Shown in pieces: positions 1 to 17,551 of a DNA stretch of 47,298 nt (within the stretch, counting starts at the first letter, position 1; each line of letters begins with the position of its first letter). Source of the DNA: Bacteroidales bacterium (GTDB taxonomy: Bacteria > Bacteroidota > Bacteroidia > Bacteroidales > CAIWKO01); the NCBI GenBank assembly GCA_018004645.1, contig JAGNBV010000007.1, positions 12,929-60,226 of the forward strand, read 5' to 3'. The notes beneath the pieces were generated by a model, which was given only the letters and a program-made list of their open reading frames with translations, was not told the origin of the DNA and did not search any database. A program made the translations under genes and the position numbers.

Positions 1-19
1 CGTTATCATTCACTAATTT

Positions 20-1426
20 TCAAGTCCTCATCGTTTTACATCTTTTTTTAAATTTTTGTATAATAATATCCCTCATTATTTCTTTGATCGTCCTGCCCTC
101 GATATGTTCAAAAATGGTGTGATCAATCCTCCGCGGCGTGTCCGGTTCCCGGCTCTTTTTTCCTTTGTAGTTAATTTTTTCAGGATAAAAAATTACTACA
201 TCCGTTTCAGTGATCGGAGTTTCCTCTAATGTATATGGATTTATTACGGTGTCATTATTCGCCTCACATAACTGTTCGCTGTCACCTGCCTGATCCAGTT
301 TGTTAAAATTCAATTCTTTACATTTGTAAAATGCACCAAATCGGCTGTACAGTCGTTTGTTTTTGGTGTTCTGTAAAATTTCATTAATCAGGAAAATGTT
401 AAAATTTTGCGCGTCCAGCTTTAAACTGTCATTTTTGAAATGATACTTTATTGTCTCCAGGATTGCGCGTGTGTGGAGCTCTAATATAGCCGCCCCGCGT
501 TCCTCTTCATTCAAGTATTCATTAAAATTTATCTCTCTAATTTCGTCTTGTAAATAATATTTTTTGCGGACGGCCACCAACCCCGCTGGCGTTTTTGTTG
601 TCGTATTGTCTGGCGTTTCATGGGCCTGTAAATTTTTGCGCTCTTTGAGTTCTACTATATAACGCCCAGCCGCATCCTTTTTATAGATATACAAACTTTC
701 TACCCATATCTGACTGGCCCCGGTTTGTCCTTCCCATGCCTTTTTTAAATCATCCCTGAATTTGTTAATACTTTGGCCCTTTAAAAAAGTGAGTGAGTGA
801 ATGTGTATGTGTAGTCCATTTTTTTCTGATCCGCTGACCTCGGCCCCGTATTCACCTGCATATACTTGTTTTTTCCAAAAGTCTTGTTTCCTGATCAGGT
901 TAAAATTAGATATCAGTTCTTTAAGATAAAACCTTTTTCCATTATACAGGCCGCCTGGGTGGGGTAATGTTAGCGTAATATGTACCGGGGTATATTGCTC
1001 GTATATCTTTGTGTCTTTTAAAAAATGATAATAGACGGACCGGATCAATTTAGATTTTTTCCAGTTCCAAACAGGATCGAGACGGTTTTTACTGTAAAAA
1101 TGTGCGTTGGTGAAAACTTCGCTTTGTGTCCCGGCGGCGTTTGTAAACAAACTTCCGACGGATTGGCCGTAATTTCCTAAAATATAATATTCGTTAATAA
1201 GTTCGCCATAGTCCTGTGCAATCTCATTAAATCGTTCGTTTGACCATGTTAAACTGGTGAACTGTGCTTTTGTGGCCGGAAGTTCAATTTCAAAGTTAAC
1301 TTCTAAAAATTCCTTTATCTGCCGCCTCAATTCTGCCGTTTCCTTGCGTTTCCATGATAGTTTTGATGAATAGGCCCGGTTTGCTTGTAATCGTTGTAAA
1401 TTGACGGATATTGTTTCGGGTGTCAT
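20..1426 (-). CDS. HUH-family rolling-circle replication initiator (Rep)
   Basis: The 468-aa protein carries the hallmarks of an HUH endonuclease. A hydrophobic strand TLTLP (about residues 151-155) resembles motif 1. GLHIHIHSL (about 205-213) supplies the metal-binding HUH histidines. KYHFK (about 327-331) gives a tyrosine with a lysine three residues on, as in single-tyrosine Reps. Enzymes of this kind nick one strand at an origin and stay linked to the 5' end to start rolling-circle replication of plasmids and ssDNA phages. The tail is strongly basic. It is the last visible gene of a leftward operon that also encodes an SSB, which fits ssDNA replication. The ATG at 1424-1426 is the first Met and the stop lies at 20-22, so the gene is complete. 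A relaxase or an IS200-like transposase is less likely given length and neighbours. Confidence 0.72.
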   Translation of the reverse strand: MTPETISVNLQRLQANRAYSSKLSWKRKETAELRRQIKEFLEVNFEIELPATKAQFTSLTWSNERFNEIAQDYGELINEYYILGNYGQSVGSLFTNAAGTQSEVFTNAHFYSKNRLDPVWNWKKSKLIRSVYYHFLKDTKIYEQYTPVHITLTLPHPGGLYNGKRFYLKELISNFNLIRKQDFWKKQVYAGEYGAEVSGSEKNGLHIHIHSLTFLKGQSINKFRDDLKKAWEGQTGASQIWVESLYIYKKDAAGRYIVELKERKNLQAHETPDNTTTKTPAGLVAVRKKYYLQDEIREINFNEYLNEEERGAAILELHTRAILETIKYHFKNDSLKLDAQNFNIFLINEILQNTKNKRLYSRFGAFYKCKELNFNKLDQAGDSEQLCEANNDTVINPYTLEETPITETDVVIFYPEKINYKGKKSREPDTPRRIDHTIFEHIEGRTIKEIMRDIIIQKFKKRCKTMRT

Positions 1427-1505
1427 GGGCTTGTTTTAAAATTCCAGATGTTCGTAATATTATCAAGTAAGGGGTAAACGGCTGAAAATCCGTTAATTAA
1501 ATTTT

Positions 1506-2006
1506 TTAATTTTTTGCGGGCGCCGGGGATATATATCCCGCTAATTTAGCAGGTGCCGCCGCGCTGAAATCTCTAATCTTTGTTACCTTATCAAAAATAC
1601 TTTCATATTTTTTTGAACTGGTACAGGGGATCAACTTTTTTAATGTGCTATCGGCGAACTCATTAGTTTTTTCCATGAGGTCGTTAAATCCTCGCTGATA
1701 ACATTCTTTTGCGAATAATTCGCATTTTTCGCATAACTTTATATATGCCTCTTTGCGTTTATATTCTTCTTGTGTCTTGGGTGTCCAAGAATATTGATAG
1801 GCGTTTTTTCTTTCGTTGGATATGCTGACTATTGACACGGCTAACTGCGTTTTTATGATCTGTTTAAGTTTGTTTATGGCTAACTCCATATTAGTGGCAT
1901 AAAAAAAACCGGCGTCTGATTTTTTGCCGGTAACGGTGTTAGCCCATGTTACGGAAATTTCATTCCCAAATAAGCTGAAATTTTCAAAAATCCTGAAATC
2001 AATCAT
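1506..2006 (-). CDS. hypothetical protein of the ssDNA-replicon operon
   Basis: I do not recognise this protein. From the ATG at 2004-2006 it is 166 aa. An in-frame TTG at 2100-2102 would add 32 residues that are basic and low in complexity; I prefer the ATG, but the longer form would leave a smaller gap after the SSB gene. It is soluble in appearance, rich in Lys and Glu in the middle, and contains several Cys (around the KLCEKCELFAKEC segment) that could bind metal or be incidental. It lies between the SSB and Rep genes in the same orientation, so a role in replication or packaging of the element is an inference from position only. Confidence 0.6.
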   Translation of the reverse strand: MIDFRIFENFSLFGNEISVTWANTVTGKKSDAGFFYATNMELAINKLKQIIKTQLAVSIVSISNERKNAYQYSWTPKTQEEYKRKEAYIKLCEKCELFAKECYQRGFNDLMEKTNEFADSTLKKLIPCTSSKKYESIFDKVTKIRDFSAAAPAKLAGYISPAPAKN

Positions 2007-2167
2007 AAACTTAATTTTGTGTGATGGGTTTTTTTTTCTTATGGTCGCTAACTGAAAAAGCGTTTTTTTACGGGGGGGTTGGGTGCGTATAGCGGCGGGC
2101 AATCCTTTTTAAAGGAAAACGCCCGCCGGTTCCGCTGTCTTCTGCTTTTTTCAGAATGACCATGAAG

Positions 2168-2197
2168 CCACAGGACGCCCCCCGGCGGAGCCTGTGG
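2168..2197. other. GC-rich hairpin, candidate replication origin or nick site
   Basis: Seven-base arms (CCACAGG at 2168-2174 and CCTGTGG at 2191-2197) enclose a second short pairing (CGCC with GGCG), giving a strong stem with a small bulge. It starts directly after the SSB stop codon and lies between the SSB and the next operon gene. No T-run follows it on the minus strand, which argues against an intrinsic terminator. HUH Reps usually nick at or beside such hairpins, so a double-strand origin is possible. The nick site itself is not identified. Confidence 0.35.
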
Positions 2198-2203
2198 AAT
2201 ATC

Positions 2204-2623
2204 TTAAAATGGCAAATCGTCGCCGTCGTCTTTTTTAGACGGGCGGGCAGGTGCGTTATATTGATCGCTGTCAAATCTTCCCTGTTCGCCGTTGTCTTCT
2301 CTCCCTTCGCGCTTGTCCAGCAGATCCAATTCTTTAACGGTAATCTTAAGGTCTGCCGCAGGTTTGTTTTCCTTTGTCATATATGCCCCGGCGTTTAATG
2401 TCCCGACAATGTTTATTGTCGCTCCCTTTTTTAGAAAATTCTCAATATTTGAACTTGTCCAAAAAGAACAACGAAACCATGTTACTATCTCGGTTTTGTT
2501 GCCTTTGCTGTCGACGATCCGGCGGTTGTCTGCGGCGGAAAATTCAACAACTTTTTTTCCCTCGATCTCTTTGGTGATGGCGTCGTTGCCAATGTTTACG
2601 CGGCGTAAAATAATAGTGTTCAT
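2204..2623 (-). CDS. ssb: single-stranded DNA-binding protein
   Basis: The 139-aa protein has the OB-fold layout of bacterial SSBs: an N-terminal strand with RVNIGND, the central WFRCSFW segment corresponding to the usual W-F-x-C/V-x-x-F/W region, then KKGATINIVGTL as the strand before the variable tail. The last residues, DDGDDLPF, match the acidic tip that recruits replication and repair proteins to SSB. Length and tail agree with a functional SSB rather than a fragment. It is the fourth gene of the leftward operon, about 25 bases after the previous gene, and would coat the ssDNA made by the neighbouring Rep. The chromosome is expected to have its own ssb elsewhere, so this copy probably belongs to the mobile element. 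Confidence 0.88.
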   Translation of the reverse strand: MNTIILRRVNIGNDAITKEIEGKKVVEFSAADNRRIVDSKGNKTEIVTWFRCSFWTSSNIENFLKKGATINIVGTLNAGAYMTKENKPAADLKITVKELDLLDKREGREDNGEQGRFDSDQYNAPARPSKKDDGDDLPF

Positions 2624-2648
2624 AAAATTTTTGTTTTTAGGTTAATAA

Positions 2649-2921
2649 TTAAAAAGGGAGTTTTTCTTTATCTAATGGGTTAAATGCGCATATAATTTGA
2701 CAATAATTTATATCCGTATATATATAAGATTCAAGGGATAAACGCTTCAATTCCTTTAAAATAACGAATAACAGTACATCGTTAACAACCATTGTATTAA
2801 AATGGACTACAATTTCATTTCCTATTATTTCGACCGTGATGGCTCTTTCCTCGTAAAACCGTTTGTTAATGCGGCTTATTGCGGCTCGTATAGATAGGTA
2901 TTCAGGGCTGTTTGCGTTCAT
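2649..2921 (-). CDS. small hypothetical protein of the ssDNA-replicon operon
   Basis: An unrecognised 90-aa protein with an alternating helix and strand look and no signal peptide or obvious DNA-binding motif. The middle (IEIIGNEIVVHFN-like strands followed by a helical LLFVILKELKRL) suggests a small alpha/beta fold. It sits 26 bases after the excisionase-like gene and 25 bases before ssb, so it is almost certainly cotranscribed. Its C terminus (KEKLPF) faintly resembles the acidic or hydrophobic LPF tip of SSB proteins, which may be chance. Function unknown. Confidence 0.6.
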   Translation of the reverse strand: MNANSPEYLSIRAAISRINKRFYEERAITVEIIGNEIVVHFNTMVVNDVLLFVILKELKRLSLESYIYTDINYCQIICAFNPLDKEKLPF

Positions 2922-2947
2922 AGAATTAAATTTTAAGTGAATAAATA

Positions 2948-3205
2948 TTACTTGTTTTTTAAATAGTCGTTGATGGCCTTTTGGCTGATTTGCCCGCCGG
3001 GCGTGGTGTGGAGTTTGCCGGTACGGATCAATGTTTTGATTTTGTCGTATCCGCCCAACGTGCCGGATTTTACTAATTGATTGACCGTATAAACCTGTGA
3101 GGCCGCGGCGGCGTCCAGCCGGATTTCATAGGTCTGAATTAATTTTTGTATTAATTCCTTTAAATCCTCTATATCTGATTTTGTGGCGATCTCGGCGGGG
3201 TTCAT
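2948..3205 (-). CDS. excisionase/MerR-like helix-turn-helix protein
   Basis: This 85-aa protein begins with a short predicted coiled coil (residues about 8-30, IEDLKELIQKLIQ) and ends with a winged-helix-like segment: VYTVNQLVKSG, then GGYDKIKTLIRTGKL, then a G-G-Q wing and KAINDYL. That arrangement matches the HTH_17/excisionase family of small DNA-binding proteins, which direct recombination or act as early regulators in mobile elements. It follows the Cro-like gene by about 20 bases. A role in excision or in control of the replication operon is inferred from family and place. Confidence 0.6.
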   Translation of the reverse strand: MNPAEIATKSDIEDLKELIQKLIQTYEIRLDAAAASQVYTVNQLVKSGTLGGYDKIKTLIRTGKLHTTPGGQISQKAINDYLKNK

Positions 3206-3225
3206 TTGGCGGGGGGATTTTATTA

Positions 3226-3438
3226 TTATGATAATGGACTATTGTCAGCAGTAAGCATATTAACCGGAATTTGCAAGGCAATACTAATTGCCGACAGGCT
3301 GTTAATCGTGGTTAATTTCGGATCGTTTGAGGCTAACCAGTTCATAATAGTACGTTCGCTTTTATTATGTACTAACATAAGCCTTGTAATGGCCTCGCGG
3401 CTGTGCCTGATCTTAAATATGATTTCTTGCTTTAACAT
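3226..3438 (-). CDS. Cro-like small HTH protein
   Basis: A 70-aa protein with helices consistent with a lambda-repressor-like DNA-binding domain (SERTIMNWLASNDPKLTT would be the turn and recognition helix, followed by INSLSAISIALQIP). It is the first gene of the leftward operon and faces a divergent XRE repressor across 137 bases, the place a Cro protein would occupy in a temperate phage. The promoter proposed for it has a good TATATTTG element. The HTH assignment is by pattern and is weaker than for the repressor. Confidence 0.55.
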   Translation of the reverse strand: MLKQEIIFKIRHSREAITRLMLVHNKSERTIMNWLASNDPKLTTINSLSAISIALQIPVNMLTADNSPLS

Positions 3439-3466
3439 GGGGCGTGTAACTTTTTATTTGCTTTTT

Positions 3467-3527
3467 CGTAATTGATTACGTAATTTTAAACGTGCAAATA
3501 TATATTTAAAAGTATTCAAAAAGCAAG
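3467..3527 (-). promoter_or_regulatory. divergent switch region: leftward promoter plus palindromic operator
   Basis: On the minus strand TTG (3524-3526), 21 bases, then TATATTTG (3495-3502) matches the Bacteroidota promoter form. Just downstream of it, before the Cro-like ATG, are two overlapping palindromes: CGTAAT-TG-ATTACG (3467-3480) and ATTACGTAAT (3475-3484). Their position between promoter and start codon is where a repressor would block transcription of the replication operon. The binding protein is most simply the XRE product at 3576, but that is inference. Confidence 0.5.
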
Positions 3528-3575
3528 TTTAAAATTGAATAATGTGTAATTTGTAAACAATCTAAATATAAAGGT

Positions 3576-3851
3576 ATGATATTCACAAAGTTGGTTTTTC
3601 TGCTTAAAGAAAAAAAATTAACTCAAGATGAGTTAGCGATAAAAATGAAGATGTCTAAAGGGGGTTTAGTCCAGGGCATGAAAAACGGGACAATCCAATA
3701 TAATAAACTAATAGAAATGTCGGAAATATTAGAGGTTGATCCGGTTTACTGGCTATCGGAGAATAGCGATTATAAAGAGAGTGTAAGCAATGAAGAAAAA
3801 AAATTAATTATAGCACTTAGAAATTTTATTAGAAAGGAAAACATGAAATGA
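3576..3851 (+). CDS. XRE-family HTH transcriptional repressor
   Basis: The 91-aa protein starts with a clear Cro/C1-type domain: FLLKEKKLTQDELAIKMK, turn, SKGGLVQGMKNG, and a fifth helix YNKLIEMSEILEVDP followed by VYWL. The C-terminal 30 residues are charged and may dimerise. It reads rightward, divergent from the replication operon, so it is the natural lysogeny or copy-control repressor of the module. The stop codon overlaps the start of the next gene (3848), which indicates translational coupling to the membrane protein. Confidence 0.8.
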   Translation: MIFTKLVFLLKEKKLTQDELAIKMKMSKGGLVQGMKNGTIQYNKLIEMSEILEVDPVYWLSENSDYKESVSNEEKKLIIALRNFIRKENMK

Positions 3852-4291
3852 AGACAAGTAAAATAATCTCGAATCTATCTATCTCATTATCAGTTATTAA
3901 TTTATTTATTCTAATTTTCTATTGTTGTTTTTCTAAAATTGATAATATTATGCCAAGTTTACTAATATCTGTATTGGGAATTTTGATCACGGTATTAATA
4001 GGATGGCAAATTTATCAATCTATTCAGTTCGAAAAAAAAATACTTGAATATAAAAAGGATGTGTTATTAACTAAATGTAAAATGCGCAATCTATCAGTAG
4101 GTATGGCAAATTTTATAATTGGTAAAATTTTACAAGATAAAGAAAGAGATAACTATAAAAAATGGTATGATAAATCTTTCAAACAAATATCAAAATCTAA
4201 CGAAATTGGGTTGTTAACTGAAATTATGAAAATAGCACAAATATACCCCCAATCACAAAATGTCAAAAATAAAGTATCTTCAGGCAAATAA
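3848..4291 (+). CDS. small membrane protein coupled to the repressor
   Basis: Unrecognised 147-aa protein with two hydrophobic helices near the N terminus (about residues 10-31 and 36-56), followed by a soluble, Lys-rich helical domain of about 85 residues. Its ATG overlaps the stop of the XRE repressor by four bases. Membrane proteins transcribed with a prophage repressor often exclude related phages, for instance by blocking DNA entry; that role is plausible here but rests only on context. AT-rich base use resembles the rest of the module rather than the host genes that follow. Confidence 0.6.
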   Translation: MKTSKIISNLSISLSVINLFILIFYCCFSKIDNIMPSLLISVLGILITVLIGWQIYQSIQFEKKILEYKKDVLLTKCKMRNLSVGMANFIIGKILQDKERDNYKKWYDKSFKQISKSNEIGLLTEIMKIAQIYPQSQNVKNKVSSGK

Positions 4292-4292
4292 A

Positions 4293-4317
4293 AAATGTTA
4301 GTACAAATGTTAGTACA
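4293..4317. repeat. 12-base tandem direct repeat, two copies
   Basis: The 13-base string AAATGTTAGTACA occurs at 4293-4305 and again at 4305-4317, sharing one base. It lies three bases after the last gene of the accessory module and could be part of an attachment or recombination site. No protein-binding role can be read from it directly. Confidence 0.5.
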
Positions 4318-4405
4318 GTGGATTTTTTCTAAGGCTGCAAGCTGCGGTAAATGGGCGATGTGTGATTTGTTTGCACCCCTGACAGGACAACAAATAAGAT
4401 TCAAA

Positions 4406-4446
4406 ACCCGCTGTAAATCAATCAATTGCAGCGGGTGTTTTTTTAA
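4406..4446 (+). terminator. intrinsic terminator
   Basis: ACCCGCTG (4406-4413) pairs with CAGCGGGT (4429-4436) and is followed by G and a run of seven T. It would end transcription from the repressor/membrane-protein unit. Confidence 0.75.
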
Positions 4447-4593
4447 GTGCCAACAGGGGGGGAGGCAAAAATATTTCTCTGTGTTATTATCGTTCCATCG
4501 TAACATTTATGCCAAATAGCTGATATTTCAATTTGGTATCATATATTATCTTGTCATAAAAAGTTCTTTTATTACAAATAAAAATGCATCATT

Positions 4594-5607
4594 ATGAAAA
4601 AAAATTTACTATTAACTTTGATAGCATGCCTGATAATTGCATGGGCAGACGCTCAAAACAATTATGTTCTTAATTTCAACGGGACAAGTAACTATGTCAA
4701 CTTAGGTACCACAGCTGGTAATAATCTACGAACAATTGAATGCTGGTTTAAACCTGCAATAACTATTACCAGTAATACGCTCAGTGAAGCAGCAACTTTG
4801 ATTGACCGGAATACAAATGCCACAGGCGAAGTCGGTGAGATTTCCATTTTTATTGGCCCTAATGACTGGGCAGGGTGTGAGGGGAGAATAGTGTTCGGAG
4901 TGAGTGGCAATCCACATAATGTTTATTCGAATAGCAGTACCTGGCAGGCGGGTGTATGGCACCATTTAGCATGTGTGATCAATCCATCAGCAGGAATGGA
5001 AATGTACGTAGATGGTCAAAAGCAAACCAGCACATATGGATATACCTCCCCTACTGATAATCGTACAGAAATTACAACTGTAGGATGCTGGGGAGATTTA
5101 AATGATCGCTTTTTTAACGGAGCAATTGATGAAATTCGTTTTTGGAACCGGGCTCTTACTCAATCGGAGATTCAACAAAAAATGTGTTTAAGACTGAGCC
5201 CTGCTGCAGAAAATGGTTTGGTAGGTTACTGGACATTGGATGAAGGTACCGGCACGATTGTTTATGATTCAACAATAAACTGCTATAACGGCTCTATTTA
5301 TGGTGCAACCTATAATGCTGATAATAGTTTTTGTTTTTATCATGTCGAAGAATACCAACCGGAATGTTCAGTAACTGTATTTCCAAATCCGTTTAATAAT
5401 TCAACGGTAATTCAGTTAAGTAAAACATTAGATGATGCGCAGATAAGTATTCACAACATTATTGGACAAGAGCTGGCAACGATTAAAAATATCACAAATG
5501 ACAAAATAACTGTTAACAGAGACAATTTGCAGAATGGTATTTATTTCTTGCATCTGACATCAAACAATAGAATCATTGCCATAAAAAAAATAATAATTTG
5601 CGATTAA
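4594..5607 (+). CDS. LamG-like (ConA-fold) secreted protein with T9SS type A sorting domain
   Basis: The 337-aa protein has a signal peptide (MKKNLLLTLIACLIIAWADAQ). Residues about 22-205 form a LamG/concanavalin-like jelly roll, shown by YVNLG near the start, WHHLACVINP, MYVDG, and FNGAIDEIRFWNRALTQSEI; such modules bind glycans or proteins. A short stretch with GLVGYWTLDEG repeats the LamG theme. The last 80 residues are a Por-type tail: VFPNPFNNST, then NIIGQEL, and NGIYFLHL followed by KKIII. The protein is therefore predicted to leave the cell through the type IX system and be fixed to the surface. It stands alone, downstream of the module boundary. Confidence 0.85.
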   Translation: MKKNLLLTLIACLIIAWADAQNNYVLNFNGTSNYVNLGTTAGNNLRTIECWFKPAITITSNTLSEAATLIDRNTNATGEVGEISIFIGPNDWAGCEGRIVFGVSGNPHNVYSNSSTWQAGVWHHLACVINPSAGMEMYVDGQKQTSTYGYTSPTDNRTEITTVGCWGDLNDRFFNGAIDEIRFWNRALTQSEIQQKMCLRLSPAAENGLVGYWTLDEGTGTIVYDSTINCYNGSIYGATYNADNSFCFYHVEEYQPECSVTVFPNPFNNSTVIQLSKTLDDAQISIHNIIGQELATIKNITNDKITVNRDNLQNGIYFLHLTSNNRIIAIKKIIICD

Positions 5608-5998
5608 GAGAAAACGCCAAAGACACTACTTCCGATAGCCAATTCAGTCAGCAAGTACCATTGGTTAGGGTAACCAGATTACCCCGGAAATGAGTAATAC
5701 TAGTTTTTTAGCCTGATAGCGTGCGGTTGAAAAAAATTCTTGTTTACTTTTTTTATAAAAAAAGTAATTTTGTTTTTCAAAAATTCTCATGAAGTACGGT
5801 CTCAAGTGTGTGTGCAGTTCCTATCGGGAATGTGTATATGTTAATATGCATATAAGTTCAAAGTTTTGAAGGGGTTATAACTGGATCAAACTTTCGTTTC
5901 GAAAAAAATATCGGCTTCTGCCTACTTATAATTCAAAGTTGAGGACTGTTATGTGCAAAGATGAAAACGAAAAGAAAGAGAGTAACCAAAAAAGAAAT
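5608..5998. other. intergenic region with possible promoter
   Basis: About 390 bases without a gene. TTG (5740-5742), 22 bases and TAATTTTG (5765-5772) form a possible promoter for the following gene, leaving a leader of more than 200 bases. I see no tRNA, riboswitch or strong hairpin here. Confidence 0.3.
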
Positions 5999-7207
5999 AT
6001 GAAAAAGATCATCCTGTTGGCAGTTGCATTATGTGTTATTAAAAATTCTAACGCACAATGGATTAATCAAACAAGTAATACCACCAACCATTTATCGTCT
6101 GTTTGTTTTGTTAGTCCCGATACGGGTTACGCTGTCGGAGCTATGGGCACAATAGTCAAAACCATCAATGGAGGCAACGATTGGTCGGTTCAGCCCAGTT
6201 TAACTTCATACAACTTAAAATCAATTTGTTTTGCCGATAACAATGTAGGTTATATTGTTGGACAATACGGTAGAATATTTAAAACTATGGATGGCGGCAA
6301 TAATTGGCTTTTATTAACGACAGACACAACCTACGATTTTAATTCGGTTTGTTTTATAAGTGCGGATACAGGCTTTATTGCTGGTAAAAAAGGGGATAAT
6401 GGCTATGTTTTAAAAACCACTAATGGAGGCACTACATGGCTTCCTTTTTCGGCTTCTTATGGACAAATAACTGTTCTTAACTCCGTTCATTTTGATAATT
6501 CCAGTTTTGGTTTAGCCGCAGGATATTTCTATAATCCGTATAATTTTTATCCTTTAGTTTTGAAGACTACCAATGGGGGAACCACCTGGTCACCAAAATA
6601 TCCGATTGGAAGTTCGCTTTATTCTGTTCATTTAATAAATGCGGATACCGGCTATACAGTTGGAGTGAATAATTCATTATTAAAAACCAATAATGGGGGA
6701 GATGGGTGGATAACGCAATATTGTTCATCAAATGTCGACCTGACCTCTGTATTTTTTACTTCAGGCGTTCTGGGGTATGCCGTGGGAAGTAATGGCACCA
6801 TACTGAAAACTACCGATGGCGGTAATAATTGGGATTCTCAGGTAAGCAATACAAGCAATCACTTGAATTCAGTTTGCTTTGCAAATTCAAATATAGGTTA
6901 CGCTGTCGGAAATTCAGGGACTATTTTGAAAACGATTAATGGCGGTATTATCACAAACAATGAATTTGGAGAAAACGATAGGATTGATGTTGTAATTTCT
7001 CCCAACCCCTTTAATGATATTGTCCAACTTGAATGTTTAAAAGGTGCAGACGTTGAAATTATAAACCCTTGGGGACAAGTGATGATGAGTAAAAAGACAC
7101 AAGACTCAAGGACAACTTTAAATCTGGCTAAATTAGATTGCGGCGTTTACTTTATTAGAATAAAAACCGATAACGCAATTATAATTAAAAAGATAATTAA
7201 GGATTAA
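5999..7207 (+). CDS. YCF48/BNR-repeat beta-propeller protein with T9SS type A sorting domain
   Basis: I start at the internal ATG (5999) because it gives a clean signal peptide (MKKIILLAVALCVIKNSNAQ); an upstream in-frame ATG at 5939 would add 20 charged residues. The 402-aa product contains about seven repeats built on the pattern SVCF...DTGYAVG..GTI.KT.NGG..W, the signature of YCF48/photosystem-II-stability-like and BNR propellers. These form extracellular beta-propellers of generally unknown ligand in Bacteroidota. The C terminus (VISPNPFND, NPWGQVM, CGVYFIRI, KKIIKD) is a type A T9SS sorting domain. A weak palindrome-free spacer of 13 bases separates it from the convergent gene downstream. 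Confidence 0.86.
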   Translation: MKKIILLAVALCVIKNSNAQWINQTSNTTNHLSSVCFVSPDTGYAVGAMGTIVKTINGGNDWSVQPSLTSYNLKSICFADNNVGYIVGQYGRIFKTMDGGNNWLLLTTDTTYDFNSVCFISADTGFIAGKKGDNGYVLKTTNGGTTWLPFSASYGQITVLNSVHFDNSSFGLAAGYFYNPYNFYPLVLKTTNGGTTWSPKYPIGSSLYSVHLINADTGYTVGVNNSLLKTNNGGDGWITQYCSSNVDLTSVFFTSGVLGYAVGSNGTILKTTDGGNNWDSQVSNTSNHLNSVCFANSNIGYAVGNSGTILKTINGGIITNNEFGENDRIDVVISPNPFNDIVQLECLKGADVEIINPWGQVMMSKKTQDSRTTLNLAKLDCGVYFIRIKTDNAIIIKKIIKD

Positions 7208-7220
7208 ATGGACCTGATAT

Positions 7221-7634
7221 TCAGAGTTTGTCTGATAATGGTATTGCTTTGTTGGCCTGGATGCGAACGCCATAATAATTAAATAAGGTGGGCGTTACCG
7301 GCTCACCTTCTATGAGGTCGAAAGTTAAAGACCGGTCGGGGAGCGGAGGAAAATACAACGAGAAAAACAAGTTGTCGGCGGTGCTCAGAAAATGGTGCTT
7401 GTCGGGTCCAAGCGGTATGTTTTCGGCTTTGAGCATATGCAGCTTTTCTTTGCCGCCACGGATACGGATAAATGTTTTCGGAAAAATATTCACCCATCCG
7501 CCCCTGACATAATACGAGTCGGCCTGATGACCGAAATCAATGCGGGTAAACTTCTCGCAGCGTATTACCCGGAGCATTTGCGGGCGTCCCGGGTTGGCAT
7601 CATACACGGGCAGGTTATAGAGTTTGGGTTTCAT
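7221..7634 (-). CDS. conserved hypothetical protein, partner of a WYL regulator
   Basis: A 137-aa soluble protein without signal peptide. It has several beta-type segments such as YYVRGGWVNIFPKTFIRIRG, KHHFLSTADNLFFSLYFPPLP and FDLIEGE. I recall similar strings in Bacteroidales proteins of unknown role but cannot name a family. Its ATG (7632-7634) lies inside the end of the WYL regulator gene, overlapping by 20 bases, so the two are translated from one message. A function linked to what the WYL protein controls is an inference. Confidence 0.65.
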   Translation of the reverse strand: MKPKLYNLPVYDANPGRPQMLRVIRCEKFTRIDFGHQADSYYVRGGWVNIFPKTFIRIRGGKEKLHMLKAENIPLGPDKHHFLSTADNLFFSLYFPPLPDRSLTFDLIEGEPVTPTLFNYYGVRIQANKAIPLSDKL

Positions 7635-8652
7635 GATGATTCTTTCTGTAACGAAAAAAAGCCGTTTTCAGGGCGCTTTCTACGGCATTTACCATCTCGG
7701 CTGGTTTCAGCACAACCACATCCGGACTGAATTGTTTAAAGAAATTGACCAACTCCTGCGAAGGGATCAGCTCAACCACAAAAATCACACCTCCGTCCGG
7801 TTGTATTTCATGCTCTTTTTGCGATTCGTGCACCGGGTTGGCCCTAATGTATTCCGACATTAAAGCGCTTGCATAAAAAAAGATTTTTTGCCGCTTGCAT
7901 CCCGTCCATGGGTAGGTGCCGTAAATATGTACAAAATAGGCATCCACTACCTTGTCGTCCACATGATGAAAGGGCTTGTCAAGCAACAAAGGGTCGCGTA
8001 TGCGGTCGAGACCGAAGGTGCGCAGGCATTTATGCTGTTCGGAGTAGGCCACCAGATACCAGCGGTTCTGGAATTCCTTTAACAGAAAAGGATGAGTAAC
8101 CACCGAGTTAAAACATCTTTTATTATAGGAATAATGTACAAAACACACAGGTATCTTATTGCTGATGGCGTGAAACAGGCGTTCAAAGTTTTCAAAACCT
8201 TTCTGCCGTTGGTTAGTGTCTGTCTGAATGTACCGCTGTTTTTTGCCGATCTGACATTTCTTCTCTTTGAGTGTGGTAAAAATCTTTTCAACTGCCAGGT
8301 TGAAATTTTCGCTGATACGGTTGCCGGCAAATGTCTGTAATACATCCGACACGGCTTCGAGGGCTTCAAGTTCCGAACTGTTCAACGGGATGCTGTTGAT
8401 AGAATAATCAGGGTGGGCATAGTAATAACCGTTGTACTGCCTGCTGAACTTTATTGGAGCCAGAAAACCCAGTGCCTCATCTTCTTTCATGGCTTTGATG
8501 TCTTTTTGAATAGCCGAAACCGAAAAAGTTTTTCCTAGTTTATTTTCGCAGGCATCAATAATGTCAAAGATGGTAGGATAGGTTGCAAAACGGTTGGTGA
8601 GGCATTCGTTTATGACCTTGTAACGGATATAAGCTTCTTTTCCCAGCGACAT
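7615..8652 (-). CDS. WYL-domain transcriptional regulator (YafY-like)
   Basis: I place the start at the ATG 8650-8652 (345 aa, MSLGKEAYIRYKVINECL); a longer frame adds 12 residues that overlap the promoter. The N-terminal 80 residues form a winged helix (TIFDIIDACENKLGK, SAIQKDIKAMKED). The WYL core follows at about 170-260 with PVCFVHYSY, HPFLLKEFQNRWYLVAY and FGLDRI, and a WCX-like extension closes the protein. WYL proteins bind nucleic-acid or nucleotide ligands and control stress, repair or defence genes. It overlaps its partner gene downstream. The promoter upstream is of good quality and divergent from the next gene. Confidence 0.85.
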   Translation of the reverse strand: MSLGKEAYIRYKVINECLTNRFATYPTIFDIIDACENKLGKTFSVSAIQKDIKAMKEDEALGFLAPIKFSRQYNGYYYAHPDYSINSIPLNSSELEALEAVSDVLQTFAGNRISENFNLAVEKIFTTLKEKKCQIGKKQRYIQTDTNQRQKGFENFERLFHAISNKIPVCFVHYSYNKRCFNSVVTHPFLLKEFQNRWYLVAYSEQHKCLRTFGLDRIRDPLLLDKPFHHVDDKVVDAYFVHIYGTYPWTGCKRQKIFFYASALMSEYIRANPVHESQKEHEIQPDGGVIFVVELIPSQELVNFFKQFSPDVVVLKPAEMVNAVESALKTAFFRYRKNHHETQTL

Positions 8653-8659
8653 AATAATG

Positions 8660-8689
8660 CAAATATATAATAAATATTTAAAACGCAAA
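8660..8689 (-). promoter_or_regulatory. promoter of the WYL regulator
   Basis: On the minus strand TTTG (8686-8689), 18 bases, then TATATTTG (8660-8667), seven bases before the ATG. The short leader suggests a nearly leaderless message. Confidence 0.55.
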
Positions 8690-8709
8690 TTGACTGCGTT
8701 TGAGAAAAA

Positions 8710-8717
8710 TATTTTTG
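8710..8717 (+). promoter_or_regulatory. -7 element for the membrane-protein gene
   Basis: TATTTTTG matches the Bacteroidota TAnnTTTG element; a TTG lies 17 bases upstream (8690-8692). It faces away from the WYL promoter, so the two genes share a short divergent control region. Confidence 0.4.
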
Positions 8718-8756
8718 TAACAAATCAAAGGAAGAAAAGTGACAAGACGAATTAAA

Positions 8757-9305
8757 ATGGAAAAAGAAATCATCAGTTATGCAAGGAAGGAACTGGGCTA
8801 TGAAAAGTTCATCCCGATATTCAGGAAAAAGAACAGCCGTGATTTTGTTACAGAAAATATCGTGATTATTGCCGAAAGGTATAATAAAAAGATATTGTAC
8901 ATTTCAAGGTTGTGTATGGGTAGCATTGTGCTAAGCGGGCTGGCGATGGTCGCATCTGCCCCGCTGATGCATAGTGATATCAGACTGGCGGCTGTGTTGT
9001 TCAGCGCAGGTGTTTCACTTGCCGGGCCTATGTTGATGCTTACAGGAATGATATCAAAGCAACTGAAAGAATTTGCCTGGATTGATGTTGACGGCGCCCG
9101 CGAGGGGGTTAAATCTGATAAGGTTAATCTCGTTCTCCGTGAAGTTAATGATTATTATAAGAATAAAGGGAAAATGCCGGAAATATTTGAAATCCTGATT
9201 GTTTCAGAAGGAGGGATTGATGCCGGTGCCCGTGCGATTCATCTGAAAAACAAAATAAGGTTCTTTGAGAAAAGCAAAACAGGTAACAGCTTACAGGAAA
9301 TATGA
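8757..9305 (+). CDS. small two-helix membrane protein, unknown function
   Basis: From the ATG at 8757 the product has 182 aa; an in-frame GTG at 8739 would add six. Two hydrophobic helices (about residues 47-70 and 76-97, with GSIVLSGLAMVASA and AAVLFSAGVSLAGPMLML) sit between a charged N-terminal region and a soluble C-terminal domain of about 80 residues. I do not recognise a family. It is monocistronic, divergent from the WYL regulator and convergent with the OmpA-family gene, whose stop is 10 bases downstream. Confidence 0.65.
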   Translation: MEKEIISYARKELGYEKFIPIFRKKNSRDFVTENIVIIAERYNKKILYISRLCMGSIVLSGLAMVASAPLMHSDIRLAAVLFSAGVSLAGPMLMLTGMISKQLKEFAWIDVDGAREGVKSDKVNLVLREVNDYYKNKGKMPEIFEILIVSEGGIDAGARAIHLKNKIRFFEKSKTGNSLQEI

Positions 9306-9315
9306 AAACCGGGGA

Positions 9316-10617
9316 TTATTCTACGGCGGTAACCAAAATTTCCACCCGGCGGTTTTTTTTCATTTTATCTTCGCTGCGGGCGTCAGGATATATCATTTTT
9401 GTTTCGCCAAACCCTTTGAAAGTCATTTTTTGCGGGTCAATGCCGCCGTCTTCAAGGTAGTCGTAAATGGCTTTCGCACGGTTTACCGATAATTGCATGT
9501 TGTGTTCCTTCATTTTGCTGCATTCTTCCCAGGTAGTCGGACAATTCACGTGCCCCTGTATTTCGATGTGCAGGGCGGGATACCTTTTCATAGTGGAATA
9601 AATAGCTTCCAGGGCCGGTTTCGATTCGGGCAGGATCTCGGCTGTATTGCCGTAGAATAAGATGTTTTCAAACACCACATTTTGTCCTGTTTTTATCCTG
9701 GTCAATTCGATGGTTACACTCATGGACTGTCCGTCGGCGTTGGTCTTGATACTGGTAGCATTGTCAAAATAATTAATGGCTTCGGTCTTGATGTTATAGG
9801 CGGTTGACGGAGCCAGTTCGGCAACGTATGTTATTACACTGTCGGAAGCAGCGGCAGGAGGAAGGGCAGGCTTGTCCTTATAATAAACCTTGATGTTGGA
9901 AGCTACGGCCTTTTTGCTGTCTTTATCAATGGTATTAATAGTAACGGCGACATTTTTCGGTGTCGTATTCTGAGGCGGTTTGGTCTTTGTTTTGTTTGCG
10001 GTTTTTTCTGGTGGTTTTACGGGTTCTGCTTTTTTGTCATAGCCCGAATAGTGCAGTATCACGGTGTGACCGCCGCCCTGGGGATACACATTATCCACCA
10101 CCAGGTAATAGATTTCTCCTTTTTTGACCCGCAAACTCTTACTGAACGAGGCACCCGGGCCCGAATGAATGTACTCTTCAGGGGCCTCATTCGACAAGCC
10201 AGTCCTGCTTTTCAGGGCTTTATCATTACGCGAGATGCAACTGCGTACCGGAATTATTTTTTTGTCGCTCACATCCAGGCAAAAGTTACGGCCGCTATAC
10301 CTGTAAAGAATAAAATCATAATCATCCCTGATATTTACGGGAATTATCTCCATTTCCAGCACGGCATCGTATTTTGCCTTAAAAAAATACCAGCAGGTGT
10401 TATGTTCTTTTTCAAATTCGTACAAACTGTTTTTTGCGCCGCTGATTTCCATCAACTCTCCATGTCCCGAGGGGGGATTGGTAGGACCAAAAATGGTATC
10501 TTTGATTTCCACAGGTTTTTTGCAGTCGGCATTCTCAGGTTTTATATGATATATGCCCTGGGCAAATCCCAGTGTCGTCAAAAACAATCCCAACAGAAAT
10601 CCGCAGACTTTATTCAT
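9316..10617 (-). CDS. OmpA-family outer-membrane/peptidoglycan-binding protein
   Basis: The 433-aa protein has a signal peptide ending at GFAQ. Residues about 20-190 form a beta-rich domain with paired Cys that resembles the pre-peptidase-type domain common at the front of Bacteroidota OmpA proteins. A Pro/Lys linker follows (about 195-225), then a carboxypeptidase-regulatory-like domain (about 225-305). The OmpA domain covers about 310-433: VVFENILFYGNTAEILPES, IEIQGHVN, LSVNRAKAIYDYL, and NRRVEI, which carries the Arg that binds diaminopimelate in peptidoglycan. Its ATG is four bases after the stop of the M1 peptidase, so the two form an operon. It probably tethers the outer membrane to the cell wall. 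Confidence 0.85.
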   Translation of the reverse strand: MNKVCGFLLGLFLTTLGFAQGIYHIKPENADCKKPVEIKDTIFGPTNPPSGHGELMEISGAKNSLYEFEKEHNTCWYFFKAKYDAVLEMEIIPVNIRDDYDFILYRYSGRNFCLDVSDKKIIPVRSCISRNDKALKSRTGLSNEAPEEYIHSGPGASFSKSLRVKKGEIYYLVVDNVYPQGGGHTVILHYSGYDKKAEPVKPPEKTANKTKTKPPQNTTPKNVAVTINTIDKDSKKAVASNIKVYYKDKPALPPAAASDSVITYVAELAPSTAYNIKTEAINYFDNATSIKTNADGQSMSVTIELTRIKTGQNVVFENILFYGNTAEILPESKPALEAIYSTMKRYPALHIEIQGHVNCPTTWEECSKMKEHNMQLSVNRAKAIYDYLEDGGIDPQKMTFKGFGETKMIYPDARSEDKMKKNRRVEILVTAVE

Positions 10618-10621
10618 GTTG

Positions 10622-12991
10622 TTATTTCACTAACAGTAATTTTTTATCACCTGATTTTTTCTTTCCTTTCCAGGAAATCAGATGGGCATAATACGTTCCC
10701 GGCTCACAATTGCCCGCATCCCAAACGGCCTGTTTTTCATTTTTCTCAATTCTGATCATACACACCTCTTTGCCCGATGCATCATAAATCATTATTGCCG
10801 CATCTTCTGTTATACCAAACGAAAAGGTGAAGGTTTTATTTGAAGGATTGGGAAATACATTCAGGCCATTTTCCTGAGGGATTTTATTAATGGCGGCAAA
10901 ATAGGGTGTGCCAACGGCAAAAGTATATTCGCCCCTGCGGAGGGTGTCCACTATCAGAAACCCAACAGAGGCAGGTCCCAAATGTGTAAAATGGGCAATA
11001 CTCCAATCGGAAGAGACGTCAGGCCGGTACAGCAGGAGCAGGGAGTCGGTAGAAGCTGCTACCGGCAACAGGCCGCTGTCGGTATTGCCAACGTCGGCGC
11101 TTACCGAACGGTTGTATTTGAAACGTGCCCGGGCAACAAAATCACCGGGAAAAATACCATCCACTTTCCAGTAGTGATAATCCGACAGGCGGAGAATATC
11201 AGGCCTGGGAGTTTTCAGGGTGTCGGTGGCTACCCAGTTGTGTTCCACGCGCAACAACACCGAATCACTGATATTTGTTACATCCACCCGGCATAAGGCA
11301 CGGGTAAGGTCGTACGGCCCCGTCGTCTTAATCACTTTGGTCATATCGGTAATGGCATCCGAAATTTTTTCATGGTAGTCCATCATTACAAAATCAGGCA
11401 CAAAGGGCAACACAAATTCTTTGGTTCCAGTTTCTCCCGAAAAATGCAGGGTATCCGAAAAAAATGTCCAGTCGTTTTTACCGAAGGTCAGTTCTATCTT
11501 GTTTGAATTGGCGAAAGCCGGAGCATGGTTTAGTTTCTGGCGTACCCACACCTTCACCAATACCTCCGGGCTGGTTTGCAGTACTTTAAATGAATCCACC
11601 GCAAAATGCGGGAATCCCGGGCTGAAGACCCATGTCTGAAAAAAATCGTCCATATTGATGCCGGTGTGAACGCTTAGATAATCGCGCAGGCCGGCGGAGG
11701 AGATATCCCTGAAACGGTAATCGTCCAGCAGGGAAGTGATGACGGCAAAAAACACGCTGTCGCCAAGATAGTTTCTGAGGGTATGTACCACGTCGGCGCC
11801 TTTGTCATACACTGTTGTGCCATAGGTGTATTCGTCAGGTATTCCATACAGGGCGCGGTATCCGTCATCTTCTTCGTGGGCCGAAAACAACACATTATAA
11901 TGATTTTCACTGACGTTGAGCCTGTAGGCTTCGCTGCCATATAACAACTCCTGGTAAACCGATTCGCAGTAAGTGGCCCAGCCCTCGTTGATCCACATGT
12001 CGGCGGCGGTGCTGCACGTTGTCAAATCCCCAAACCACTGATGCGACAATTCGTGGGCATACAACGATTCATAGGCCAGATTGCCTGTAATGCAGGCAAG
12101 CGGATAAGCAATATTGGTGGAATGTTCCATCGCCCCGCTGTTAAAAGGCACTCCCACATAGCCAACACGTTCCCAGCGATACGGGCCGAAACGTGTTTCG
12201 AAGATCGCCAGAATTTGTTTCAGGTTAATGAAGGATCCTTTAGCGGCATTGGTATCCTGGGGCCTGACGTAGATGTTTATCGGCACAGGGCCTGACATGC
12301 CGTGAAACGTGTCGTTGACAGCCACATAATTGCCAACAGCAACCGAAGCCAGGTAGGTGGGGATGGTATTATGCATTCTCCAGTGATAGGTGCTGCTGTT
12401 GTTGCCATTATCAATAACCGACATCAGGGTGCCGCCGCAGATGGCTTTTTTATCGTTTTTTACTGTGATGAAACAATCGTAGGTGGCCCTGTCAACAAAA
12501 TCATCAATACATGGGAACCAAACTCTGCCGTAGTTGTGTGGAACTGCGGCAAAGCCCACGCCAAGGTTGAAGGCAAAAGAACTGTCGGCGCTGAAATAAA
12601 ATCCACCCCAGCCCGATGCATCGGTTTGCGGCATGCCGTGATAGAACACCGTCAGGGAAACAGTATCGTTCAGATGGATTGGTTGGGGCAGGTTTATTTC
12701 AATAATAGTATCGTTATAGGAGAAAGTTGTCAGGAGGTTGTTTTCGTAAAATATGGAGTCAACATTCAGTTTCAGTAAATAAAGTTTTACCTGAGATACA
12801 TTGTCGTGCCGCGGTATAAACTCAAGGGTGGCAGAGCCCGACAGGCTTTTAGTGGATATATGCGACAAATTAACATTAATACAGTAATTAAGGACGTCGA
12901 TAGTGTCGCTTATTGCTTTTGCCGGCGCGGCGGCATAGGAAGCCGTGGCAATATAAAAGAGCAACAGCAGGCCGGTAATTAGTTTTTTCAT
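10622..12991 (-). CDS. secreted M1-family zinc aminopeptidase with T9SS type A sorting domain
   Basis: The 789-aa protein has a signal peptide (to about residue 21). The M1 (gluzincin) core shows GAMEH at about 286-290, equivalent to the GAMEN exopeptidase motif but with His for Asn. The zinc motif HELSHQW starts at about 313, and the second glutamate lies in NEGWATY at about 336. An N-terminal beta domain (residues 30-220) and a helical or beta C-terminal region follow the family layout. The last 80 residues (VFPNPSNKTFTF, IYDASGKEV, PGTYYAHL, KKLLLVK) are a T9SS tail. It would trim N-terminal residues from peptides at the cell surface. It is first in an operon with the OmpA-family gene. Confidence 0.9.
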   Translation of the reverse strand: MKKLITGLLLLFYIATASYAAAPAKAISDTIDVLNYCINVNLSHISTKSLSGSATLEFIPRHDNVSQVKLYLLKLNVDSIFYENNLLTTFSYNDTIIEINLPQPIHLNDTVSLTVFYHGMPQTDASGWGGFYFSADSSFAFNLGVGFAAVPHNYGRVWFPCIDDFVDRATYDCFITVKNDKKAICGGTLMSVIDNGNNSSTYHWRMHNTIPTYLASVAVGNYVAVNDTFHGMSGPVPINIYVRPQDTNAAKGSFINLKQILAIFETRFGPYRWERVGYVGVPFNSGAMEHSTNIAYPLACITGNLAYESLYAHELSHQWFGDLTTCSTAADMWINEGWATYCESVYQELLYGSEAYRLNVSENHYNVLFSAHEEDDGYRALYGIPDEYTYGTTVYDKGADVVHTLRNYLGDSVFFAVITSLLDDYRFRDISSAGLRDYLSVHTGINMDDFFQTWVFSPGFPHFAVDSFKVLQTSPEVLVKVWVRQKLNHAPAFANSNKIELTFGKNDWTFFSDTLHFSGETGTKEFVLPFVPDFVMMDYHEKISDAITDMTKVIKTTGPYDLTRALCRVDVTNISDSVLLRVEHNWVATDTLKTPRPDILRLSDYHYWKVDGIFPGDFVARARFKYNRSVSADVGNTDSGLLPVAASTDSLLLLYRPDVSSDWSIAHFTHLGPASVGFLIVDTLRRGEYTFAVGTPYFAAINKIPQENGLNVFPNPSNKTFTFSFGITEDAAIMIYDASGKEVCMIRIEKNEKQAVWDAGNCEPGTYYAHLISWKGKKKSGDKKLLLVK

Positions 12992-13008
12992 AGGTTTTTG
13001 ATATTATA

Positions 13009-13016
13009 CAAAAATA
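13009..13016 (-). promoter_or_regulatory. -7 element for the M1 peptidase/OmpA operon
   Basis: On the minus strand TATTTTTG, 17 bases before the start codon. No convincing -33 element at the usual distance, so this is only a partial match. Confidence 0.35.
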
Positions 13017-13092
13017 GTCACAATATTCTTTTGGCATGACTTCATAACAAATAATTTGGCACAAGCTTTTTCAATGCTTCCTAAAAAGGTTT

Positions 13093-13100
13093 TATCTTTG
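13093..13100 (+). promoter_or_regulatory. -7 element for the tolC-hlyD-tsaB operon
   Basis: TATCTTTG, 18 bases before the tolC start codon; a T-rich stretch about 20 bases upstream (around 13066-13071) may act as the -33 element. Confidence 0.45.
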
Positions 13101-13118
13101 TAACTTATTGGGATTTGT

Positions 13119-14540
13119 ATGAAAAAGTTTTTTACCGCGGTTTTTTTGCTCTTTTTGTGGTGTTGTTCCCATGTGTTTTCACAAAAGATTTGGACTTTAG
13201 AGGATTGTATTTCGCATGCGCTGGAAAATAATATCCAGGTGAAGCAGCAACAGCTGAATGCCGCTTTGTCGAAGCTTCAGTACAACCAAAGCATAGCCGA
13301 GTTGTTCCCATCGGTGAATGCCACGGCTAATCATGTGTACAATAATGGCCAAACCGTGGATATGTACACCAACACTTTTGCGTCACAAACCGTTCAATCA
13401 AATAATTTCTACCTGAGTTCTAATGTGGTGTTGTTTAGCGGGCTGCGTTTGTTAAACGGATTAAAGCAAAAACAATATGATTTTCTTGCGAGCAGCTATG
13501 ACCTTGAAAAAATGAAAAACGATATTTCGCTGACAATTGCTACGGCCTACCTTCAGATATTATACAACCTGGAACTGCTGGAGACTTCAAAAAACCAGCT
13601 TGAGTTATCCCGGCAGCAGTTGAAACGCACCGAAGCCCTGTTCGATGTCGGCACCGTAGCCAAGGGAACCGTGTTGCAGATGGAGGCACAGGCTGTTGCC
13701 GATGAGTTGCAGGTGGTGACGGCACAAAACCAACTTGACTTGTCGTACCTGTCGCTGGTACAGTTTTTAGATTTGCAAACCACCCAGGGCTTTGATATTG
13801 AAAAGCCTGTATTTTCGGTGCCTGAGACAAGTTTGTTATCACAGCAGGTAGAGGAGATTTATGAAAAGGCCTGCTCTATTCAACCCGATGTCAAAAGTGC
13901 GGAAATGAAAGTACAAAGCGCCAAAAAGGGTTTGCAGATTTCACGGGGCATGATGAGTCCGTCGCTCATGCTCAGCGGCTCGTACGGCACAGGGTATTCA
14001 GGCGCCAGCAAAAGCATTGCGGACATCAGCCTGTCGGGCTATGAAACTATCGGGGCCACTGAATCGGGAGAACTGGTTTACGGACCTACTTTTGATTATA
14101 CCTATGAAAAAGTTAAGTTCTGGGACCAGCTCGAAAACAATCTGAACAGCTCTGTGGGCTTATCGCTCAACATTCCCATTTTTAACAAATGGCAAACCAA
14201 TACGATGATAGGCACATCCAAAATTGCTGTAAGCAGCGCTGAACTCTCGCTTCAGAATACAAAAAACCAGTTGTTTAAAACCATTCAACAGGCCTATGCC
14301 GATGCCCGCGGCGCTCTCAACAAGTACCACGCCAGCCTCAAATCAGTTGAAGCACTCAGCGAATCATTTAATTATACACAGCAAAAATTTGATGCAGGGA
14401 TGGTAAACACTCTGGATTACAACGATGCTAAAAACAAACTCGCTGCCGCAAACTCGGAAATGCTAAAGGCAAAATATGAATATGTTTTCAGGATAAAAGT
14501 GATAGACTTTTATCAGGGGAAACCCCTTACCCTTAAATAA
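13119..14540 (+). CDS. TolC-family outer-membrane efflux protein
   Basis: The 473-aa protein has a signal peptide ending near VFSQ and then the repeated helical hairpins of the outer membrane efflux family: WTLEDCISHALENNIQVKQQQLN opens the first, and the second half begins near PDVKSAEMKVQSAKKGLQISRG. LSLNIPIFNKWQT near residue 350 and the C-terminal KFDAGMVNTLDYNDAKNKL are typical. Three such chains form the channel through the outer membrane and the periplasmic tunnel. It is nine bases upstream of the adaptor gene. Its length is normal. Confidence 0.92.
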   Translation: MKKFFTAVFLLFLWCCSHVFSQKIWTLEDCISHALENNIQVKQQQLNAALSKLQYNQSIAELFPSVNATANHVYNNGQTVDMYTNTFASQTVQSNNFYLSSNVVLFSGLRLLNGLKQKQYDFLASSYDLEKMKNDISLTIATAYLQILYNLELLETSKNQLELSRQQLKRTEALFDVGTVAKGTVLQMEAQAVADELQVVTAQNQLDLSYLSLVQFLDLQTTQGFDIEKPVFSVPETSLLSQQVEEIYEKACSIQPDVKSAEMKVQSAKKGLQISRGMMSPSLMLSGSYGTGYSGASKSIADISLSGYETIGATESGELVYGPTFDYTYEKVKFWDQLENNLNSSVGLSLNIPIFNKWQTNTMIGTSKIAVSSAELSLQNTKNQLFKTIQQAYADARGALNKYHASLKSVEALSESFNYTQQKFDAGMVNTLDYNDAKNKLAAANSEMLKAKYEYVFRIKVIDFYQGKPLTLK

Positions 14541-14549
14541 TATTTTTCT

Positions 14550-15923: not shown

Positions 15924-15935
15924 CGGCAGACTCCT

Positions 15936-16637: not shown

Positions 16638-16668
16638 TTCAACAGCATACATTCGGTATTATACCCAT

Positions 16669-16701
16669 AAAAAAAGCGGCTCCGTCTGGGCCGCTTTTTT
16701 T
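16669..16701. terminator. bidirectional intrinsic terminator
   Basis: AAGCGGC and GCCGCTT pair around a nine-base loop, flanked by A-runs before and T-runs after, so it can stop both tsaB and the convergent T9SS gene. Confidence 0.85.
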
Positions 16702-16716
16702 GAGTGTTTTGTACAA

Positions 16717-17496: not shown

Positions 17497-17521
17497 AATG
17501 TTAATTTTATTAATTTTGGTG

Positions 17522-17551
17522 CAAAGATACGAAATACTATTGAAAAATCAA
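17522..17551 (-). promoter_or_regulatory. promoter of the T9SS protein at 16717
   Basis: On the minus strand TTG (17549-17551), exactly 19 bases, then TATCTTTG (17522-17529), 25 bases before the start codon. This is a near-ideal Bacteroidota sigma-ABfr promoter. Confidence 0.7.

Follow-up and report, generated by a model that had tools for sequence, protein, structure and literature searches.

What kind of element occupies the left end of a 47,298-nt stretch of DNA from a Bacteroidales bacterium (contig JAGNBV010000007.1; G000:C25:12929-60226 in our genome set, hereafter the window), in which genes for a replication initiator (Rep), a single-stranded DNA-binding protein (SSB) and a divergent XRE-type repressor stand close together? 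The original prediction, made from the letters alone, placed an integrated phage of the single-stranded DNA (ssDNA) type or a rolling-circle replicon with a lysogeny-type switch at window 20-4291, and supposed that its structural genes lie left of base 20. The same contig extends 12.9 kb to the left of the window, and its positions 1-18000 were handled as locus L003 (window coordinate = L003 coordinate minus 12928). A late-gene module and an integrase gene were found there, directly left of the window, and window 20-4291 proved to make up the rightmost third of an integrated element of phage-like character, about 15.5 kb long (including one 100-N gap), whose right boundary lies at window 4375-4397. 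In our view, window 1-4397 very probably carries the control and replication genes at one end of a temperate virus, probably tailless and with a membrane, that has inserted into the 3' end of a tRNA-Gln(CTG) gene. Close relatives of the host metagenome-assembled genome (MAG), G000, are lake MAGs, and one of these is named Bacteroidales.

The ends of the element were defined by direct repeats. An exact 20-nt repeat, ACCCCTGACAGGACAACAAA, is present at L003 1791-1810 and again from L003 17303 (window 4375-4394), where it forms the right attachment site, a copy of the tRNA-Gln(CTG) 3' end (window 4375-4397, plus strand). At the left, this repeat terminates a run of 51 nt that shares 96% identity with the 3' portion of tRNA-Gln(CTG) in genome G002, where the glutaminyl-tRNA synthetase (GlnRS) gene and tRNA-Gln are uninterrupted; in G003, a sister element lies beside an intact tRNA-Gln(CTG) and GlnRS, and the integrases of the two elements are 56% identical. 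The integrase in G000 is a tyrosine recombinase (L003 1996-3177, plus strand; PF00589, E 5e-18), and its occurrence together with direct repeats of a tRNA 3' end marks a tRNA-directed site-specific integrating element. Two related elements are bounded in the same manner, one of about 21 kb between tRNA-Pro and a 15-nt repeat of this tRNA's 3' end (G211) and the other of 14.5 kb between tRNA-Asp and a 13-nt 3'-end repeat (G056). Besides the attachment sites, two TGTTAGTAC repeats lie at the right end (window 4296-4326, plus strand, copies at 4296 and 4308), and more copies lie beside the integrase at the far end (L003 1944, inverted at L003 1973); in the whole window, this sequence occurs only as the two copies and one inverted copy. 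From their presence at both inner ends we infer that they are candidate arm-type sites of the integrase. Both repeat families, D1 and D6, had been tried as attachment sites; D1 corresponds to the tRNA-Gln end, and D6 was reread as the candidate arm sites.

The left side of the locus is more complex, since tRNA-Gln of G000 lacks its 5' half and a second tyrosine integrase gene (420 aa, L003 232-1494) lies directly outside the left attachment site. This integrase probably marks one end of a further element inserted in tandem at tRNA-Gln; ATTTGATACACAA repeats were observed near it. The same neighbours, DHNA aldolase and the beginning of GlnRS, close contig C119 of this genome. The second integrase and the split tRNA-Gln indicate that the locus was probably hit twice, and they would also suit a degraded prophage remnant that is no longer mobile. 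We regard a remnant as very unlikely, because the recognised genes are intact, with neither in-frame stops nor frameshifts noticed in Rep, SSB, the integrase or the late genes, and the attachment core is conserved at both ends.

The part of the element inside the window carries replication and control genes. Rep (468 aa, window 20-1426, minus strand) is an HUH rolling-circle initiator, as originally predicted, with an HIHIH motif and a match to Pfam Rep_1 (PF01446) at E 5e-9 (36.3 bits, above the cutoff of 33.2). The Y-x-x-K motif that had been read in it is present as YHFK, but the G198 relative has YHFE, showing that Tyr within the YHF motif is conserved and Lys is not. No convincing pC194-type nick site was found near rep with up to 3 mismatches allowed, a search that gave weak matches alone. 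SSB (139 aa, window 2204-2623, minus strand) was likewise identified correctly (PF00436, E 9e-12; TIGR00621 above cutoff) and ends in a DDLPF tip. Homologues of Rep are present in G198, G056 and G012, each of them paired with SSB, and this recurrence in three other genomes places the gene set beyond chance; viral genes lie on the same unbroken contig in two of the three (G198 and G056), and Rep, SSB and XRE occur together in G012. A short stretch upstream of SSB (window 2619-2655) gave a 92% match to positions 8377-8412 of contig C77 of the same genome.

The repressor gene (91 aa, window 3576-3851, plus strand; phrog_8, transcriptional regulators, E 2e-7) is of the XRE type and, as the prediction had it, divergent, lying on the strand opposite to the other genes named there. 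An AT-rich intergenic control region (window 3439-3575) separates it from a 70-aa candidate Cro-like regulator without profile support (window 3226-3438), the first gene of a leftward early operon on the minus strand. This is followed by genes for an 85-aa protein with a weak match to HTH_17, an excisionase-like family (window 2948-3205, E 0.08), for a 90-aa protein without family match (window 2649-2921) and, between SSB and Rep, for a 168-aa protein without Pfam match that reached a PHROG of unknown function only at E 0.011 (window 1506-2012). The 85-aa protein resembles its positional counterpart beside Rep and SSB in G012 (41% over 32 aa, E 5e-5). Thus the two small helix-turn-helix proteins of the prediction exist as genes, with a weak helix-turn-helix match in one and nothing convincing in the other. 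On the plus strand, a gene for a 147-aa protein with a hydrophobic N-terminal part overlaps the repressor gene (window 3848-4291); in G198 a small hydrophobic open reading frame (ORF) likewise follows XRE. XRE-like genes were also found at the corresponding end of the G198 (L010 16162-16434), G211 and G012 elements, and together with the integrase and attachment repeats the divergent repressor bears out an integrated phage-like element with a lysogeny-type switch. On the other hand, AT-rich codons unlike those of the following host genes could not be upheld as a distinguishing feature: the right part of the element has 36.6% G+C against 39.0% in the adjoining 4.3 kb of host DNA, and only more distant host DNA is clearly richer (42.7% for 4398-47298). 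The first host genes past the attachment site (window 4594-7207) encode laminin-G and YCF48-like proteins bearing C-terminal domains of type IX secretion.

Left of the window, the genes between the integrase and the scaffold gap are all on the minus strand. Next to the integrase are genes for two small membrane proteins with hydrophobic segments (L003 3179-3646 and 3651-4004) and for an SLT lytic transglycosylase with a weak hydrophobic segment (L003 4039-4662), followed by those for a 118-aa protein (L003 4674-5030), an SH3-like membrane protein with hydrophobic segments (L003 5008-5904) and a coiled-coil protein (L003 5913-6629). Two candidate capsid proteins of 126 aa (L003 6633-7013) and 246 aa (L003 7100-7840) come next, then a 141-aa protein (L003 7868-8293), a 563-aa transglutaminase-like protein (L003 9578-11269; PF04473, marginal), a Pfam LEA_2 protein with a weak hydrophobic segment (L003 11271-11741) and small genes up to L003 12614. 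Amid these late genes, L003 8503-9573 encodes a 356-aa protein containing MBG-type repeats, which was observed in none of the relatives and is perhaps a receptor-binding or decoration protein. Overlapping genes for 108-aa and 77-aa proteins (L003 11827-12377) are toxin-antitoxin-like by size and order and have no family match; a 150-aa protein has a similar position in G198 (L010 10497-10949). Pfam and PHROGs scans of the main proteins of the element recognised no terminase, portal, tail, Zot, packaging ATPase or relaxase, and no HK97-type capsid or other Caudoviricetes hallmark; matches to PHROGs of the tail category were limited to the transglycosylase domain and weak coiled-coil matches. 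The suggested inovirus-like home therefore fell away, as Zot/gpI was not recognised in these scans.

These genes suggest the following course of events. The XRE repressor would keep the leftward early operon off; upon induction, the operon starting at window 3438 would yield the small regulators along with SSB and Rep, and excision across the two tRNA-Gln repeats would be carried out by the integrase from the far left end. Rep would then nick the circle, and as rolling-circle replication proceeds in the host, SSB would cover the strand that is displaced. The particle, presumably infectious and with an internal membrane beneath a jelly-roll capsid, would be built by the LEA-like, transglutaminase-like, ~140-aa, candidate capsid (246 and 126 aa), coiled-coil and SH3-membrane proteins; the late set also includes the lytic transglycosylase, which would bring about lysis, and the small membrane proteins.

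Relatives of the element were found by means of the 246-aa protein, homologues of which are present in G003, G198, G211, G784, G383 and G880, all of the same order (probably Bacteroidales), and in no further genome among 395 drawn from the phylum; two of the relative loci are CAIOJS010000365 (AlinenLipids bin) and CAIXZF010000027 (uncultured Bacteroidales, Ja bin). Among the relatives, gene order in the late block is largely conserved. One N-free contig of G198 holds Rep, SSB and the late block, with XRE divergent and an integrase adjoining tRNA-Met; at the end of its late block lies a gene for an 895-aa protein with internal 300-nt repeats (L010 777-3464), likely a fibre or spike. The G383 contig (C89) has a 127-nt terminal repeat and an ORF that spans the join, indicating that it closes to a circle of 23,809 bp. 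Several small proteins with similar hydrophobic N-termini (KKQxKTILTxAAxAxGALL) are also encoded on this contig (L046 and L016). The G056 element, obtained from the Rep search, carries integrase, Rep, SSB, LEA and transglutaminase-like genes together with different capsid-region genes. A fecal record, MT839222, was dropped, as it resembled bacterial DNA.

The same observations bear on whether the element makes a virion at all. An integrative rolling-circle plasmid or mobilisable element with a cell-wall lytic gene could have such a Rep, as the Rep_1 family is known chiefly from rolling-circle plasmids; plasmids also often carry SSB and XRE regulators, and the family libraries recognise no capsid protein. 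However, Rep had no match in INPHARED (tblastn) or PLSDB, with 72,556 plasmids searched, and relaxase or mating-pair genes were not recognised in the scans; the largely syntenic late block is shared with the relatives and includes homologues of two known virion proteins, the transglycosylase and small membrane proteins are arranged like a lysis cassette, and the ~126-aa domain is duplicated in relatives. We therefore judge a plasmid without virion to be unlikely. Nor does the element look like conjugation or transposition DNA, the profile scans having recognised no conjugation genes and Rep not being transposase-like.

Regarding the capsid, no family library scanned recognised such a protein, and a sequence search of PDB gave nothing for the 246-aa family or Rep. 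AlphaFold2 models, built from two or three input sequences, were poor for both the 246-aa family (pLDDT 41) and the 126-aa family (pLDDT 56). The best structural alignments of the 126-aa model were mostly with viral jelly rolls (PRD1 P3, BMV, STIV; Z ≤ 6.0), and the best match of the 246-aa model was the capsid protein of the archaeal virus SPV1 (Z 5.2). Chance likeness is common at Z of 6.0 or less. Since the matches are below Z 8 and a Foldseek search of PDB with the models gave nothing under E 0.001, the jelly-roll matches were taken as a hint only. A BFVD match of the 126-aa model, A0A345N0K5 (E 5.5e-4), could not be named.

We also performed a duplication test, in which a profile was made from the first halves of six proteins of about 260-298 aa (from G211, G784 and G383) and run with 996 background ORFs. 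This profile recovered the second halves of the same proteins with E values down to 2e-6. In G000, G003 and G198 it also found the ~126-aa proteins, at E 1e-8 to 1e-5 save for a weaker G003 copy (0.003). By their sequences, which are firmer ground than the models, the ~260-298-aa proteins are therefore best read as tandem duplicates of the ~126-aa domain. This domain, single in the lake elements and tandemly duplicated in other relatives, is encoded by one gene in G000 and G198, by two adjacent one-domain genes in G003, and by two genes with two fused domains each in G211, G784 and G383.

Several points weigh against a membrane-containing virus whose right end is window 1-4397. The capsid protein is unproven, the models being poor and the jelly-roll-like matches lying below Z 8, and the transglutaminase-like domain and lytic transglycosylase are widespread modules, similar transglycosylases being found in tailed phages. 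A 100-N run (L003 12829-12928) ends exactly where the window starts, indicating that the contig was scaffolded at that point, so that the link between the late genes and the Rep side in G000 is a scaffold join; this concern is answered by the unbroken G198 and G056 contigs, which carry Rep and SSB together with viral genes. Finally, some relatives encode a primase-helicase-like protein in place of Rep and SSB (L011 16153-18513), as in G211, where it replaces Rep, indicating that Rep is outside the virion core.

Searches for the element among collected viruses gave little. Tblastn of INPHARED with Rep, the 246-aa protein and its 129-aa sister protein gave nothing relevant, IMG/VR searched with capsid-candidate, transglutaminase and Rep queries gave no relative in a pattern-based search of limited reach, and the late-gene set had no close match in INPHARED, IMG/VR or PHROGs. 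Considering the integrated copies in freshwater MAGs and in further members of the order, the closed circle and the lack of relatives found in these three collections, virus surveys seem to have a blind spot where this group is concerned; only a few Bacteroidota phages that are tailless or contain a membrane are known, and most detection methods rely on known hallmark genes. Tentatively, and with doubt prevailing, these elements might form a lineage of temperate viruses without tails, of family rank or above, that belongs to one order (probably Bacteroidales) and is missing from phage and viral-contig collections. In it, Rep and SSB would be swapped for a primase-helicase while the virion module is kept, and the ~126-aa candidate jelly-roll protein could be traced from a single gene (G000, G198) by way of a tandem pair of genes (G003) to two fused-domain genes (G211, G784, G383). 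If so, this series would preserve, in living form, the kind of duplication from which double-jelly-roll capsids are assumed to have arisen. The one- to two-domain candidate capsid proteins make that origin testable, and the mixed replication modules do the same for capsid exchange between viruses of the ssDNA and double-stranded DNA (dsDNA) types.

Among known viruses, Salisaeta icosahedral phage 1 (SSIP-1, NC_017983) has a protein annotated as structural, gp34, that is related to the 563-aa transglutaminase-like protein (tblastn 4e-9, profile 1e-15), the sole relevant match among 50,697 phage records. Genes for an integrase and a transcriptional regulator are present in SSIP-1, a tailless phage that contains a membrane, as they are in the element. 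The element might accordingly be of the SSIP-1 kind, a membrane-containing virus of the single-jelly-roll type that has a pair of small capsid proteins (246 and 126 aa) and packages circular dsDNA, as the weak models of both proteins, resembling single viral jelly rolls, would also suit. Unlike the element, however, SSIP-1 is 43.8 kb dsDNA and encodes a packaging ATPase, gp40, of which no counterpart was recognised here; it has no match to Rep or SSB, and its structural proteins show no profile similarity to the candidate capsid proteins, whose models are of low confidence and whose folds are uncertain. We hold membership of the SSIP-1 kind to be possible, though improbable.

Flavobacterium phage FLiP (Finnlakeviridae, MF361639) provides the other virion homologue, as its lytic enzyme matches the lytic transglycosylase with 38.5% identity over 87% of the protein. 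Both FLiP and the element have an HUH-type Rep and no packaging ATPase (none recognised in the element; PMC5894146 for FLiP), and the FLiP late-gene order, from major capsid protein (MCP) through small structural proteins to lytic enzyme, is broadly parallel. PhiCjT23 and its Flavobacterium prophages are temperate and from the same phylum, and the double-jelly-roll MCP of PhiCjT23 has 239 aa, compared to 239-246 aa for the candidate of the element's group (PMC9719478). A membrane-containing ssDNA phage of this kind, too diverged in sequence for its capsid to show, is hence conceivable, but we doubt it. The Rep of FLiP belongs to Phage_CRI (PF05144) and that of the element to Rep_1, without mutual similarity, and the FLiP MCP shows no profile similarity to the 246-aa protein, the fold of which was predicted with low confidence; in addition, a primase-helicase-like protein replaces Rep in at least one relative. 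FLiP is 9.2 kb with no integrase annotated, and PhiCjT23 is 7.6 kb with prophages at dif sites, implying use of host XerC/XerD, whereas the element has its own tyrosine integrase and a tRNA site (PMC9719478; compared by description). The FLiP group of Yutin et al. 2018 includes Bacteroidetes prophages of up to 17 kb, some with SSB as here, but is defined by a FLiP-type MCP and an M13-like Rep, neither of which was found in the element (PMC5894146; set apart by description). The FLiP-like home that had been proposed thus does not apply in the strict sense.

Temperate membrane-containing ssDNA phages of Bacteroidota, namely PhiCjT23 (PMC9719478), and FLiP-like prophages (PMC5894146, PMC13269007) have already been published, and Microviridae proviruses are reported as further temperate ssDNA phages of the same phylum (PMC3091885). 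Compared to Rep_1 rolling-circle plasmids, which share the Rep family PF01446, the element adds integrase, late and lysis genes. What is new here compared to these systems is the late-gene set, the tRNA-directed integrases and the exchangeable replication modules.

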